DNA of 64,000 bases from Halanaerobium sp. MA284_MarDTE_T2 (GTDB lineage: Bacteria; Bacillota; Halanaerobiia; Halanaerobiales; Halanaerobiaceae): assembly GCF_003337245.1 (NCBI RefSeq), contig NZ_QPJE01000004.1:1-64000 (forward strand). Reading direction: 5' to 3'. Shown here piece after piece: positions 7,744-55,547 of the stretch. The translations under genes and the position numbers were made by a program. A model generated the notes under the pieces. The model was given only the letters and a program-made list of their open reading frames with translations. It was not told the origin of the DNA and did no database searches. Position 1 is the first letter of the stretch. Every line of letters starts with the position of its first letter.

Positions 7744-9333
7744 TTAATTATTATTATTATTAATTTCGTAGTAAAGCTCATCTGCCAGTTTCCAGTAGCG
7801 ATTTTCTGTCCAGTGCATTAGGGAATTAGTATGATTTGTTAAAAGTTCTTTTACAGCATCTTGATCTTCGGTAATATTTAGGATCATTGCTTTTTCTTCA
7901 ATCTGATCCTGAAGTTCAAAGATATGATTCTGCATTGGATTGAGGACAGAGTCAACTTTTTCTCTTAACTCTCCATACCTTAAGTTAACAAAATCATCAA
8001 CCTGAGCAAAAGCCCACCAGGCTGAATCTCTGTCAAATTTATCTCTGTTAAGAGTTTTCCAGGAAGTTGGAACATCTTCAATTCCTACATACATTGGAAT
8101 AAATGGACTATTTTCTGGATTATCAAGTCCAAACCAGACTACACCACCAATTTCATCTGGCAGCCAGCTTCTTGCCTGAGAAACAAAGAAGTAGGAGCAG
8201 TAGTAGCGCGCAATAGGTCGATAATTATTTAAATCAAGTAATTCTATCATGTCACCTGCTACCTGAGGGGTTGCCAGATTGCTTTTAACTTTTTCTCCTT
8301 TACTATTCTCATAGAACCAGCCATCCTGTTCTGTAACATCATGTTTGGTATTTTTATTTGTATCTCTGAAGAGTGCGATAACATCATGTATAGAAACTTT
8401 TTTATCTGGCTTAACTGAGAAAGGATAGTTATGAGCATTTTCGAATTTCCAGTTTCCAGAAGGTGCTAATTCATTATAAACACGCCACAATCTGTTGCTG
8501 CACCCAGGTTCCCATGGGTGATTATCCATATCACCATAGACTTTGTTCCAGAAAAATTTACTTTCTGTTTCATCATATATGCCCAGTTCTACAGCAGTTT
8601 CTTTATAGTTATCAGAAACTAAAATATCTTCCATGTCTGCATGGTTTTCTGGTATTTCACCAATTCTACTTATATTTGGGACAACAGTTATATGACCATC
8701 TGGTACTTTTTTAGCTGCCCATACAGCACCAGGTTTGCCGCTATCTTTTGTCCACATTGGTCCTACACCAAAAACCTCAAAAACCCATGCTTCATTTGGA
8801 TCAGTAACTGTCAGACATTCACCACGGTAACATGATTCCCTGAATCCATATTCTTCAGCAAGTTTTCCCATAAGTTTTACAGCTTCACGGGCAGTCTTAC
8901 ATCTCTGCAGGGCAAATACTTCCAGCTGTTCTATTGTCATAATTGCCTCATCACTATTGGCAGTTTCAGGTGCTCCAACGATAGTTGTTTCCCCTATTAT
9001 TAGCTGATGTTCATTTGCATAAGGATAAGCGCCATGGAAGTATTTGTATGTATGTTCTACTTCTGGTATTTCACCAAGTTTTACTAGATCTTTGTGGTCA
9101 GCATAAACAATATTTTCATAGACAGGTGCCATAGTTCCGGCTTTATGGTCCTGAGCAGGAATAATTTGTATGCGCGAGTCATATCGTCCATCAACTGTGT
9201 GAGAAGTTATTACCGAACCATCGGTTGAAGCATTCTTGCCAACAACAATATCAGTACAGGCAAAAGTAGATCCACTAAGAACTAAAGTGATAATTAACAA
9301 CAGAACTGTAGAAGTAGTAATTTTTCTTTTCAT
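7744..9333 (-). CDS. Secreted C69-family dipeptidase, paralogue
   Basis: 529 residues with a signal sequence ending ...SGSTFA just before CTDIVVGKNASTDGSVITSH, placing the nucleophilic Cys at the mature N terminus. It shares the CLTVTDPNEAWVFEVFG, KPGAVWAAKKVPDGHITVVP and DKFDRDSAWWAFAQV blocks with the following gene, so the pair is a tandem duplication that has diverged. The C terminus ends in an Asn run (NNNNN). AAAGGGGAG precedes the ATG. Role as for its neighbour: extracytoplasmic peptide hydrolysis in the permease/M14 operon. Confidence 0.88.
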   Translation of the reverse strand: MKRKITTSTVLLLIITLVLSGSTFACTDIVVGKNASTDGSVITSHTVDGRYDSRIQIIPAQDHKAGTMAPVYENIVYADHKDLVKLGEIPEVEHTYKYFHGAYPYANEHQLIIGETTIVGAPETANSDEAIMTIEQLEVFALQRCKTAREAVKLMGKLAEEYGFRESCYRGECLTVTDPNEAWVFEVFGVGPMWTKDSGKPGAVWAAKKVPDGHITVVPNISRIGEIPENHADMEDILVSDNYKETAVELGIYDETESKFFWNKVYGDMDNHPWEPGCSNRLWRVYNELAPSGNWKFENAHNYPFSVKPDKKVSIHDVIALFRDTNKNTKHDVTEQDGWFYENSKGEKVKSNLATPQVAGDMIELLDLNNYRPIARYYCSYFFVSQARSWLPDEIGGVVWFGLDNPENSPFIPMYVGIEDVPTSWKTLNRDKFDRDSAWWAFAQVDDFVNLRYGELREKVDSVLNPMQNHIFELQDQIEEKAMILNITEDQDAVKELLTNHTNSLMHWTENRYWKLADELYYEINNNNN

Positions 9334-23822: not shown

Positions 23823-24104
23823 TTTAATTTCCTGGACTTTCCCCATTTTTTATATACTGCTGCAAAAAGGGGAGATGCAGGAATATTGAAATTTTTAGTC
23901 AATGAATCTTAACGAAATGAAGGAAGAAATAGGGTTGAACTACAGGATGGAGTGAGCTAATCATGAGTCAGGAGGACTCATTGATTAGTGTGCCCTATTT
24001 CACACCCGAATTGAGTTTTAGATAAATCTAAAAATTTCGTTGATGACTAAAGCCCCCTTTTTGCAGCTTGAAAATAAATTTTGGGGAAACTCCTATTTAA
24101 TTTC
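23823..24104 (+). mobile_element. 264-bp MITE, copy 1, with 9-bp target duplication
   Basis: The element spans 23832-24095 and is flanked by TTTAATTTC at 23823-23831 and 24096-24104. Its ends are imperfect inverted repeats of about 40 bases: CTGGACTTTCCCCA at left against TAGGAGTTTCCCCA at right (complement), then a perfect GCTGCAAAAAGGGG arm. Nested inner pairs (GAAATTTTTAG/CTAAAAATTTC, AATAGGG/CCCTATT, CTAATCA/GATTAG) let it fold end to end. It has no ORF. The copy at 47555-47818 is the same length with about four differences. Confidence 0.88.
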
Positions 24105-52429: not shown

Positions 52430-52472
52430 GGTGACATAAGTCACAGATTAAAGTTGAGTTAAATGCTAAACT
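52430..52472 (+). promoter_or_regulatory. CRP-like box and extended -10 of the DUF1858/GTPase/ATPase operon
   Basis: GGTGACATAAGTCACA (52430-52445) is a perfect GTGAC-N4-GTCAC palindrome and fits GTGA-N6-TCAC. An extended -10, TGCTAAACT (TAAACT at 52467-52472), gives a start near 52479, so the box centre is at about -41. The position matches that at hcp. It could also affect the divergent regulator gene. Confidence 0.6.
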
Positions 52473-52598
52473 TTATATTGTAAGCAAAATTGATTGATAT
52501 TGAATAATAATATTACATTTTGTGTTTAAATATATGCAGTTATATAATTGGTTTTACAGATTTTAAAATTATTTTAAAACAAAGCAGGAGTGATAAAA

Positions 52599-53825
52599 AT
52601 GAGCAATAAATATTTTTCTCGAGATGATAATTTAGCAGAAATATGCCGACAGTATCCTGAACTGATATCAGTACTGGTAAACAGAGGTTTTGAACAGCTG
52701 GCTGATAAAGAAAAAAGGAAAAGTTTTGGTAGGATGATTACTCTTAAACAGGCGGCAGAAATAAAGCAGATCAATCTGGATAAGTTAGAAGATATTTTAA
52801 TAGAAAAAATAGAAAGTGATAACTTTATAGGAAAAAAGGCTCAAAATACTGCTGATCAGATAAGAGTTGAAGGGTTATTACCCTGTCCGGTTAAAATACC
52901 TATATTTGAAGAACTGGAGAAGCTGGCTGATGATCTGAATTATCCTCTTTCGCTAAACCTAAAGTCTGCTTCTCAGGGGCTCGACTGGCTAAAAAAAGGA
53001 TTATTAAAAATTGATAGTGAAGAAGAAATTTCGGATATATTTATTTCCGCTGGTTTTGATCTTTTCTTTGACAAAAATTTAATAGATAAGTATAGAAGGC
53101 AGGGAGTATTTAAAGATTTAAGTGGGATTAATGATTTAAATAAAGATTTTAAAGATAATAATATTGATCTGCTGGATCCTGAAGGGGACTATTCAGTAAT
53201 AGGGGTTGTGCCTGCAGTATTTATTGTTAATATGGAAGAGCTGGGAGGTAGAGATATACCCAAAACATGGAAAGATATACTTTCTGAAGAATTTACTGAT
53301 AGTGTCAGTCTTCCGGTAAGTGACTTTGATTTATTTAATGCAATTCTGCTTAATCTCTACAAAAAGTATGGTCGGGAATCTATTTTAAGATTGGGCAGAT
53401 CTATGAAAAAATCTCTGCACCCAGCACAGATGGTTAAAGAAGGTGGAAGAAAAGACGAAGATCAGCCTGCAGTTACTATAATGCCGTACTTTTTTACCAG
53501 AATGGCAAAGAGATTTTCTCACATGAAATTTGTCTGGCCTGAAGATGGTGCGATTATAAGTCCAATCTTTATGCTGAGCAAAAAGAAAAATGCTGATAGA
53601 ATTAAACCATTAATTGACCTTCTTTCTTCAGTAAAAATCGGCAAAATTCTTTCCGAGCAGGGTCTCTTTCCCAGTGTTCTTCCGGGAATTAATAATAATC
53701 TTCCAGAAGGTGCAGATTTTATGTGGCCGGGCTGGGATTTTCTGCGCAGCAGTGATCCCGGTCAGCTGCTTAAAGAGCTGGAAAATGAATTTACAAAAAC
53801 TGCTGGAGGTGTGCTGGTAGGATGA
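52599..53825 (+). CDS. DUF1858-like domain fused to a cytoplasmic solute-binding-type domain
   Basis: 408 residues. The N-terminal part (about 1-70, DDNLAEICRQYPELISVLVN and MITLKQAAEIKQI) resembles DUF1858, a small helical domain often found with hybrid-cluster or redox proteins. The rest (about 85-400) has the two-lobed class II binding fold of iron or polyamine importers: GVVPAVFIVNMEELGG, IPKTWKDILSEEF and PAVTIMPYFFTRMA. There is no signal peptide, so it should stay in the cytoplasm. GGAG precedes the ATG at 52599. First gene of a three-gene operon with overlapping ends. Confidence 0.75.
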   Translation: MSNKYFSRDDNLAEICRQYPELISVLVNRGFEQLADKEKRKSFGRMITLKQAAEIKQINLDKLEDILIEKIESDNFIGKKAQNTADQIRVEGLLPCPVKIPIFEELEKLADDLNYPLSLNLKSASQGLDWLKKGLLKIDSEEEISDIFISAGFDLFFDKNLIDKYRRQGVFKDLSGINDLNKDFKDNNIDLLDPEGDYSVIGVVPAVFIVNMEELGGRDIPKTWKDILSEEFTDSVSLPVSDFDLFNAILLNLYKKYGRESILRLGRSMKKSLHPAQMVKEGGRKDEDQPAVTIMPYFFTRMAKRFSHMKFVWPEDGAIISPIFMLSKKKNADRIKPLIDLLSSVKIGKILSEQGLFPSVLPGINNNLPEGADFMWPGWDFLRSSDPGQLLKELENEFTKTAGGVLVG

Positions 53826-54523
53826 ATTTAGTAACTTTTTCTGGACCACCATCTTCTGGTAAAACTGCTGTAATTTTAAAAACAATTGAATCACTACATG
53901 ACAGAGGTTTAAAGGTAGGTGTTGTTAAATTTGACTGCCTTTATACTGATGATGACTTACTTTATAAAAAAGTGGGTGTTCCTGTAAAAAAAGGTTTATC
54001 AGGTTCACTGTGTCCTGATCATTATTTTGTCAGCAATATAGAAGAAGTAGTGCAGTGGGGCTTGGATAAAGAGCTTGATTTGCTTATCACTGAAAGTGCC
54101 GGATTATGTAATCGGTGTTCCCCATATATAAAGGATGTCAAAGCAGTCTGTGTAATAGATAATTTAAGCGGAATTAATACACCACGCAAAATAGGCCCAA
54201 TGCTTAAAACTGCAGATATGGTTGTTATAACTAAAGGAGATATTGTTTCACAGGCGGAAAGAGAAGTGTTTGCATCAAAGGTAAATACTGTTAACCCTGA
54301 TGCACTCGTAATGCATGTAAATGGATTGACAGGCCAGGGTTCTTTTGAATTTTCAACCCTATTGTTTGATGAAGATGAAGATATCAATACGGTAAAAGGT
54401 AAAAAATTAAGATTTTCTATGCCTTCTGCTATGTGTTCTTACTGTCTGGGTGAAACTAGAATAGGAGAAGAACATCAGCTGGGTAATGTAAGAAAAATAG
54501 ATTTGGGTGATAGTGGTGTATAG
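53822..54523 (+). CDS. CobW/HypB-like P-loop GTPase
   Basis: 233 residues. GPPSSGKTAVILKTIESL is the P-loop, LITESAGLCNRCSPY a Walker-B-like region carrying CX2C, and VVITKGDIVSQ the guanine-specific TKxD-like motif. The C terminus has another Cys pair, MCSYCLGE. This is the outline of metallochaperone GTPases (HypB, UreG, CobW), but the exact family is not certain. It overlaps the first gene by 4 bases and the ATPase gene at its end. A role in inserting a metal or cofactor is inferred. Confidence 0.75.
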   Translation: MNLVTFSGPPSSGKTAVILKTIESLHDRGLKVGVVKFDCLYTDDDLLYKKVGVPVKKGLSGSLCPDHYFVSNIEEVVQWGLDKELDLLITESAGLCNRCSPYIKDVKAVCVIDNLSGINTPRKIGPMLKTADMVVITKGDIVSQAEREVFASKVNTVNPDALVMHVNGLTGQGSFEFSTLLFDEDEDINTVKGKKLRFSMPSAMCSYCLGETRIGEEHQLGNVRKIDLGDSGV

Positions 54524-55547
54524 TAAAATAGAGATAAAAAATACAAGTATAGAAGAGATTATTAAGAAATATCCATATATCGAAAATTTTTTTAAAGAAC
54601 AGGAAATTCCAATTGAGAATAAATCTCAGACATTGAATGAGATATTTAAAAACATAAGCAGTATTGAAAGGGAAGATATTGTTTATTCTGAAGATGAGAC
54701 TGCTGAAAAACTGATTCAATATATAAAAAACATGCAGGAATTTTTGGGAGTAGAAGACAACACTGTAAAAAATTTATCAATTCTTCCAGGTAAAGATAAA
54801 GAAGGATATGCAGAAAAATACGAAAAATTAACTATTAAAAATGGAGAGATTATTTCAATTGTTGGACCAACAGGATCGGGGAAAAGCCGCCTGCTGGCAG
54901 ATATAGAATGGACTGCCAGTGGAGATACCCCAACTGGAAGACATATTTTAATAAATGGAGAAAAAGCTGACAAAAAATGGAGATTTTCCGGAGGCAAAAA
55001 ATTAGTTGCACAGCTGTCTCAAAATATGAACTTTGTTATGGATCTTTCTGTTGAAGAGTTTTTGCACCTTCATGCGGAGAGCCGATTGATAGAAAATGAA
55101 GATCAGGTAGTGGAAAGAATAATAGAAGAAGCAAATAGGCTTGCAGGTGAAAAATTCTCCCCTGGAGCTCAGATAACGGGTTTAAGTGGTGGGCAGTCCC
55201 GGGCATTAATGATAGCTGATACAGCTATTTTGAGTTCATCTCCGATAATATTAATCGATGAAATAGAAAATGCCGGAATTAATAGAGAAAAAGCACTAAA
55301 ACTGCTTGTTGGAGAAGAAAAAATTGTTCTGATGGCAACTCATGACCCAATACTGGCACTGATGGGTGATAGAAGAATAATTATCAATAATGGTGGAATA
55401 GCAGATATTATCAAAACATCAGAAAAAGAAAAATCTATGTTAAAAGAACTAAAAGAGATTGATAGTTATTTAAATGAACTGCGTGAGGATCTGCGTTATG
55501 GAAGAGAATTGAAGAGAAATAACATTTTTTCTCTGTATGATGCATAA
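54516..55547 (+). CDS. ABC-type ATPase with a DUF1858-like N terminus
   Basis: About 343 residues. Residues 1-50 (SIEEIIKKYPYIENFFKEQE, then SQTLNEIFKNI) resemble the DUF1858-like start of the first protein of the operon. The ATPase domain is complete: Walker A GPTGSGKSRLL, signature LSGGQSRALMIAD, Walker B IILIDEIENAG, H-loop MATHDPILA. No permease is encoded nearby, so it may act on soluble partners, like SufC. GTG codons at 54507, 54513 and 54516 are possible starts; the last is best spaced from GGGTGA. Confidence 0.78.
   Translation: MYSKIEIKNTSIEEIIKKYPYIENFFKEQEIPIENKSQTLNEIFKNISSIEREDIVYSEDETAEKLIQYIKNMQEFLGVEDNTVKNLSILPGKDKEGYAEKYEKLTIKNGEIISIVGPTGSGKSRLLADIEWTASGDTPTGRHILINGEKADKKWRFSGGKKLVAQLSQNMNFVMDLSVEEFLHLHAESRLIENEDQVVERIIEEANRLAGEKFSPGAQITGLSGGQSRALMIADTAILSSSPIILIDEIENAGINREKALKLLVGEEKIVLMATHDPILALMGDRRIIINNGGIADIIKTSEKEKSMLKELKEIDSYLNELREDLRYGRELKRNNIFSLYDA

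Follow-up and report, generated by a model that had tools for sequence, protein, structure and literature searches.

The GTPases HypB and UreG deliver nickel, and SufC is a soluble ATP-binding cassette (ABC) ATPase acting in cluster chemistry. The hybrid cluster protein Hcp helps anaerobic bacteria survive nitric oxide (NO); to our knowledge, the assembly of its hybrid cluster and the repair of NO-damaged metal centers in anaerobes are poorly understood. For the regulator HcpR2, an operator consensus, GTAAC-N4-GTTAC (hereafter the HcpR2 box), and its link with regulator residues 180/181 have been described in the available excerpt of the source (PMC1274295). Here, we analyze 64,000 nucleotides of Halanaerobium sp. 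MA284_MarDTE_T2 (contig NZ_QPJE01000004.1, positions 1 to 64,000; hereafter the window), part of a 2.47-Mb genome. The window carries three overlapping same-strand genes (hereafter the trio), which encode a protein related to solute-binding proteins (SBP), a GTPase related to HypB and UreG, and an ABC ATPase. At the sequence level, the trio shares its operator type with hcp and often neighbors hcp or forms a single operon with it; no membrane subunit is conserved with the trio. The trio is probably an undescribed helper of the NO response, as judged from these features, and perhaps supplies or repairs metal clusters.

Operators and linkage with hcp

The Crp/Fnr-type site GGTGACATAAGTCACA (52,430‒52,445, no strand assigned) is located ahead of the window trio, and its core GTGACATAAGTCAC (52,431‒52,444) is the sole exact GTGAC-N4-GTCAC in the genome. 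The site differs from TGTGA-N6-TCACA by one mismatch, a level reached by 0.5% of the shuffled upstream regions. An earlier note on this DNA had marked a stretch starting at 52,430, which coincides with the site, and had left the site unnamed. A second Crp/Fnr-type site, TGTGATATAGCTCATA (48,436‒48,451, no strand assigned), lies 143 bp ahead of hcp (48,579‒50,249, + strand; 556 residues), which scores 842 bits with NF003658 and 751 bits with TIGR01703, both over the cut-off. The end of hcp is 2.35 kb 5′ of the trio, with a chemotaxis-type protein and a divergent Crp/Fnr-family regulator (51,687‒52,376, − strand; 229 residues, no Cys) in between. The recognition helix of this regulator (SSRETVSR) carries the Arg-Glu pair of CRP, in keeping with a GTGA-type site.

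We define hcp-type trios by an SBP at least 42% identical to that of the window; the site played no part in the definition. All 24 hcp-type trios whose upstream regions were scanned have a Crp/Fnr-type site. TGTGA-N6-TCACA with one mismatch precedes 17 of them (16 in Halanaerobiales and one in genome G006) and with two mismatches one more (locus L059), and the exact HcpR2 box precedes six (L019, L020, L021, L022, L131, and L142). Among shuffles of each locus, 0 to 2% equal the one-mismatch sites and 2.5% the L059 site. As for hcp itself, the one-mismatch site was found in 17 of 17 Halanaerobiales genomes scanned (touching the called start in L147), and the exact box in G174, G481, and Fusobacterium vincentii. 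Overall, hcp has a Crp/Fnr-type site in 20 of 21 genomes scanned, and in three more (G133, G188, and G213) hcp lies directly 3′ of the ATPase, the last gene of the trio operon, with the exact box 5′ of the whole trio-hcp operon.

In 1.09 Mb of neighborhood DNA, seven exact HcpR2 boxes occur; six precede a trio or an hcp gene, and the seventh is inside hcp of L019. Whole genomes contain one (G188), two (G213 and G006), three (G133 and G174), or six (F. vincentii), and the reversed pattern occurs 1 to 21 times. In F. vincentii, two identical boxes, nearly 1 Mb from each other, are found about 0.1 kb 5′ of hcp and of the trio, respectively; of the remaining boxes examined (five of the six in total), two are within called open reading frames (ORFs) and one is between converging genes. 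Once this rule was apparent, SBP similarity led to G481, which has the order SBP-GTPase-ABC-Crp-hcp, with exact boxes before the SBP gene and before hcp; G481 and G174 are from one genus, which makes G481 a weak replicate. A LysR-like gene (identified by eye) stands one gene ahead of the trio operon in L020, where the box is also present. The published site or a variant of it thus precedes the trio and is shared with hcp, the exception being the hcp copies of G006, and sequence gives good support to the predicted membership of the trio in an HcpR-type regulon.

Gene order points in the same direction. Of the 27 genomes with an hcp-type trio, whole or in part, 19 have hcp no farther than 20 kb from it, and in two genomes besides the three with a single operon, only a Crp-like gene separates hcp and the trio. 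Among the other eight of the 27, hcp is on another contig of the draft in G305, G309, G310, and G321, and far from the trio in F. vincentii, whose GTPase is 75% identical to that of the window. The F. vincentii locus (L131) is on NZ_CP084075.1, a 2.1-Mb replicon that bears both hcp and the trio; it is filed as a plasmid and looks like a chromosome, and the stretch read has no gene table. At no more than 9 kb from the midpoint of the GTPase, hcp occurs in 10 of 21 hcp-type loci versus 0 of 36 others, a count in which some stretches are cut by contig ends and the window and L142 are left out.

The hcp-type trio is patchy, occurring in 3/10, 2/189, and 1/21 genomes of three orders, with G481 as the only new one among these six. 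Among 299 genomes sampled from the phylum, the SBP query matched 11, eight with a close (hcp-type) trio; the ATPase query matched 23 of 61 relatives, some through other family types; and the GTPase profile matched 50 of 398 genomes. Across the whole GTPase family, hcp accompanies 45 of the 50 genomes with the GTPase versus 234 of the 348 without it (Fisher p = 0.0008, for genomes that are not independent and with both lists matched by handle as the same draw). Since hcp is common (279 of 398 genomes), its mere presence or absence is weak evidence, and we set it aside. The neighborhood search for co-occurrence with hcp that the earlier note had proposed is informative in gene order and shared operator types and little so in hcp presence.

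Proteins of the trio and their membrane neighbors

The SBP gene (52,599‒53,825, + strand; 408 residues) starts from an ATG with AGGAG just 5′, the listed start being a GTG at 52,590. Its product consists of a DUF1858 module (52,620‒52,787, + strand; PF08984, E = 4.1e-17 to 4.8e-17), the sole PF08984 match of the genome at E ≤ 0.001, and an SBP_bac_6 domain (Pfam, E = 4.5e-80). The 13 orthologues are 42‒67% identical to it. No hydrophobic N-terminus was found in the window SBP or in the 28 other aligned SBP rows, hcp-type or not, in a hydropathy scan of the first 50 residues used in place of a signal-peptide predictor (top 15-residue mean of 1.51 over the 29 rows).

The GTPase gene (53,822‒54,523, + strand; 233 residues) overlaps the SBP gene by 4 bases. 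The protein has a P-loop and TKGD at the position where NKxD is usual, and the PF02492 cobW domain scores 49.4 bits (E = 5.2e-13) against a gathering cut-off of 20.7. The best curated models are HypB TIGR00073 (52.7 bits, cut-off 121.2) and UreG TIGR00101 (31 bits, cut-off 204.2), both of which it misses; the F. vincentii GTPase also stays under the HypB cut-off, at 62 bits. The best solved relatives are 2hf8 (HypB) and 5xkt and 4hi0 (UreG). Ligand-type residues, C64-P-D-H67, C96-x2-C99, C110, and C205-S-Y-C208, are invariant in all 17 sequences chosen for alignment.

The ATPase gene (54,507‒55,547, + strand; 346 residues), which overlaps the GTPase gene by 17 bases, matches ABC_tran (PF00005, E = 5.6e-16) and has the Walker A, signature, Walker B, and H-loop motifs (GPTGSGKS, LSGGQSRALM, IDEIENAGI, and THDP). 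Across 64 ATPase rows, strict patterns recover these in 59, 52, 62, and 62 rows, respectively. Its N-terminal domain (54,507‒54,800, + strand) is DUF1858-like: the first ~80 residues match the SBP DUF1858 profile in hhalign (alignment A2 against A3) with a probability of 92 and E = 6.6e-7, while 30 column shuffles gave a best probability of 0.8. The Pfam match to this region (E = 0.073) is a hint, insufficient by itself. The earlier note had described three overlapping genes, a solute-binding-type domain with no signal peptide, an ABC ATPase, and similar DUF1858-like modules at the start of the first and third proteins, all of which hold. Its CobW/HypB-like GTPase is likewise correct in kind, and the two Cys pairs that it reported are part of the larger Cys/His set above.

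No permease is conserved with the hcp-type trio across the neighborhoods read, in agreement with the earlier note, and the nearby membrane proteins vary between genera. The trio is unlikely to be an unorthodox or remnant ABC importer, in which a permease from another locus would serve the ATPase, and the SBP-like protein would be a cytoplasmic regulator or an acceptor of the imported ligand. Such an importer would agree with the FecCD permeases in the vicinity of 10 of the 36 non-hcp-type GTPases (nine loci), another importer type beside the GTPase-ATPase pair in L112, L113, L114, and L116, a ZnuABC-like set (named by eye) 3′ of the F. vincentii trio, and a 258-residue protein with four transmembrane segments encoded two genes 3′ of the trio in most Halanaerobium loci. 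However, each FecCD locus has its own separate FecE-like ATPase (9/9), neither the window trio nor those of L017‒L022 have the four-segment protein beside them, the SBP rows have no N-terminal hydrophobic segment, and the GTPase is no component of an importer. For the hcp-type trio, we thus found neither a conserved permease, nor an export signal, nor a lack of co-occurrence with hcp, any of which would have counted against the earlier note; other branches do adjoin importers with their own ATPase.

As a separate observation, L112, L113, L114, and L116, with the order GTPase-ABC-SBP and a complete importer adjoining, all have a one-mismatch HcpR2-like box before the GTPase gene. A divergent 226-residue gene is present in L113, L114, and L116; the L113 and L116 products resemble Crp and have Ser-Arg-Pro in the recognition helix.

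Other features of the window and its counterparts are recorded here. The chemotaxis-type signaling protein next to hcp (50,567‒51,424) has a Rossmann-like N-terminal part, and 74% identical copies occur near the trio in L067 and L069. Adjoining the trio of L018 (G006), the gene at 9,085‒11,004 joins a [FeFe]-hydrogenase-like part to a chemotaxis signaling part. A nearly identical repeat of ~200 bases with an internal hairpin is found on the same strand at 23,880‒24,090 and 47,600‒47,810, and resembles a repetitive extragenic palindrome or a miniature inverted-repeat transposable element. A glycosyltransferase-like protein (by eye; 58,576‒60,318) appears to end in a cyclic-nucleotide-binding domain. 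No RNA element was matched by Rfam over 46,000‒57,200, and no tRNA was found in a scan of the window. A defense system was rejected, as PADLOC matched the ABC ATPase alone, to generic ATPase parts.

Possible function of the module

In a maximum-likelihood tree of 58 GTPases, the hcp-type rows cluster (23 rows, support 92/91) apart from a nif pair, several groups associated with FecBCD, and a distant Fe-S group; several inner branches are weak, long branches meet, and one of the 23 rows (L103) is without an adjacent SBP. The relatives are located in metal-related contexts. L053 is a nif cluster with nifK, nifE, and nifB over the cut-off and a nifK/nifN-like gene and a modB-like permease under it, and it continues with the GTPase, ABC, and SBP genes and a gene homologous to the L051 synthase that scores as nifV. 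In L102, a DUF364/DUF4213 gene adjoins the ATPase gene; DUF364 is tied to metal chelation through genome context in the available excerpt of PMC2954201. In the distant group L120‒L130, the ABC ATPase, the GTPase, and an Fe-S-type protein of ~220‒250 residues make up a conserved trio of their own in all 11 loci searched, with the Fe-S-type gene directly 3′ of the GTPase gene in all of them and PF04060 in the two tested. Another distant trio (L024 and L025) has an SBP ~26% identical to that of the window, DUF1858 on the SBP (tested in L024), and a BtuF-like gene upstream. Since no hcp and no Crp/Fnr-type or HcpR2 site was found near these two loci, DUF1858 on an SBP does not by itself imply a link with hcp.

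We tentatively regard the trio, with slightly less than even confidence, as an accessory module, soluble and driven by nucleotides, that belongs to an HcpR-type (nitrosative-stress) regulon and has a putative role in metal or cluster handling. The nif, DUF364, and Fe-S contexts of the relatives and the invariant ligand-type residues of the GTPase argue for this reading, as does a DUF1858 protein that is an NnrR target according to the accessible part of PMC6710368. DUF1858 also occurs in another nitrogen-oxide setting, in Thermus DrpB, as stated in the portion of PMC6282519 at hand. By analogy with HypB and UreG, the GTPase may carry a metal ion or a small cluster on its Cys/His sites. The cytoplasmic SBP protein would bind a ligand or client as an adaptor, and the ABC ATPase, like SufC, could act on soluble partners and drive loading, removal, or repair. 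The DUF1858-type modules may dock the SBP protein and the ATPase to each other or to a common partner. The clients would be metalloenzymes hit by NO, with Hcp as a candidate and probably not the sole one.

Several observations weigh against such a metal-handling accessory module. Only 45 of the 279 hcp-bearing genomes have any GTPase of the family, and the other 234 indicate that Hcp is not generally dependent on it. hcp was not found in the trio-bearing drafts G320 and G325, and in G006 the nearest hcp is 57 kb from the trio and neither kind of site was found at any of three hcp copies. In L022 (G188), the box immediately precedes a small called ORF and is ~380 bp 5′ of the SBP gene. Many Halanaerobiales loci share the site between the trio and a divergent crp, which it could serve; no crp adjoins the site in L018, L050, L058, and L059. 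Because the hcp scan in Halanaerobiales covered only trio-bearing genomes, the site may also be a general mark of hcp in that order. The L024 and L025 trios, with neither hcp nor a site nearby, count on the same side. The SBP_bac_6 likeness could mean a non-metal ligand. Finally, the AlphaFold models, from alignments of the window with L014 and L015, are too poor to reveal a site (mean pLDDT of 39.4 with A4 and 51.5 with A5), only the DUF1858 region of the SBP protein being passable.

It is rather improbable that the trio is instead a module that binds, for signaling or trafficking, a small molecule produced under nitrosative stress, such as nitrite, hydroxylamine, or a nitrosyl-iron species, with no metal loading. 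The HcpR-type sites, the SBP_bac_6 domain, and the location of several trios near chemotaxis-type signaling proteins are consistent with signaling, but the invariant Cys/His positions of the GTPase and the nif, DUF364, and Fe-S contexts of its relatives would then be unaccounted for. Equally doubtful is a dedicated maturase that builds or inserts the Hcp hybrid cluster in these genomes, as suggested by the trio-hcp operons, the intervening lone Crp-like gene, and the common operators, since hcp occurs without the GTPase in 234 of 398 genomes and in E. coli (seen as a search control), in which we know of no such trio.

By the same count, Hcp is unlikely to be the only client, and for the accessory module a wider role in mending NO-hit metal centers fits better than Hcp alone. 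The earlier note had proposed a cytoplasmic module that loads or repairs a metal cluster, possibly that of Hcp; its soluble nature, the lack of a permease, the related DUF1858 modules, and the link to hcp and nitrosative stress stand, cluster loading or repair is a putative role, and Hcp is a candidate client, most hcp-bearing genomes being without the GTPase. A broader possibility, which we regard as speculative and on the unlikely side, is that the GTPase and ABC ATPase are the constant part of a class of cytosolic metallocofactor machines not yet described. The third protein would be exchangeable (an SBP with DUF1858, an SBP without it, or an Fe-S protein) and would direct this pair to different demanding metalloenzymes, to Hcp under nitrosative stress, nitrogenase in nif clusters, and others elsewhere.

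Comparison with known systems

A conserved module under hcp-type control would offer a ready genetic handle on Hcp cluster assembly or the repair of NO damage. Judging from the relatives in nif clusters, nitrogenase may be served by this engine as well, a prospect of interest for metalloenzyme assembly in new hosts. We found no description of the trio in the open-access literature, most subscription journals being outside the scope of the search. In the available excerpt of the HcpR study, the F. nucleatum regulon consists of hcp only and no ABC/GTPase trio is named (PMC1274295).

The trio resembles the HcpR regulon in having the exact GTAAC-N4-GTTAC box, or a CRP-like variant, before both the trio and hcp; the window regulator has Arg-Glu, versus Arg-Pro in HcpR2. 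Unlike a canonical ABC importer, the trio has no conserved permease in the neighborhoods read and, by hydropathy, no exported binding protein. Its SBP shares the Pfam domain of the SBP_bac_6 importer binding proteins but differs from them in the DUF1858 fusion and in having no export signal by hydropathy. The ATPase may be compared with SufC of SufBCD, as a soluble ABC ATPase presumably acting in cluster chemistry, but differs in its DUF1858-like N-domain and its GTPase partner; SufC was not among the best 25 of 140 NCBIfam matches, and no search aimed at sufB or sufD was made. The GTPase shares its superfamily with HypB and UreG but differs from them in its sub-cut-off scores, an extra C-terminal CSYC motif, and the adjacent ABC ATPase gene in nearly all loci of the family that were read. 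In our assessment, the module belongs to no system tested or known to us, and its parts are members of known families.

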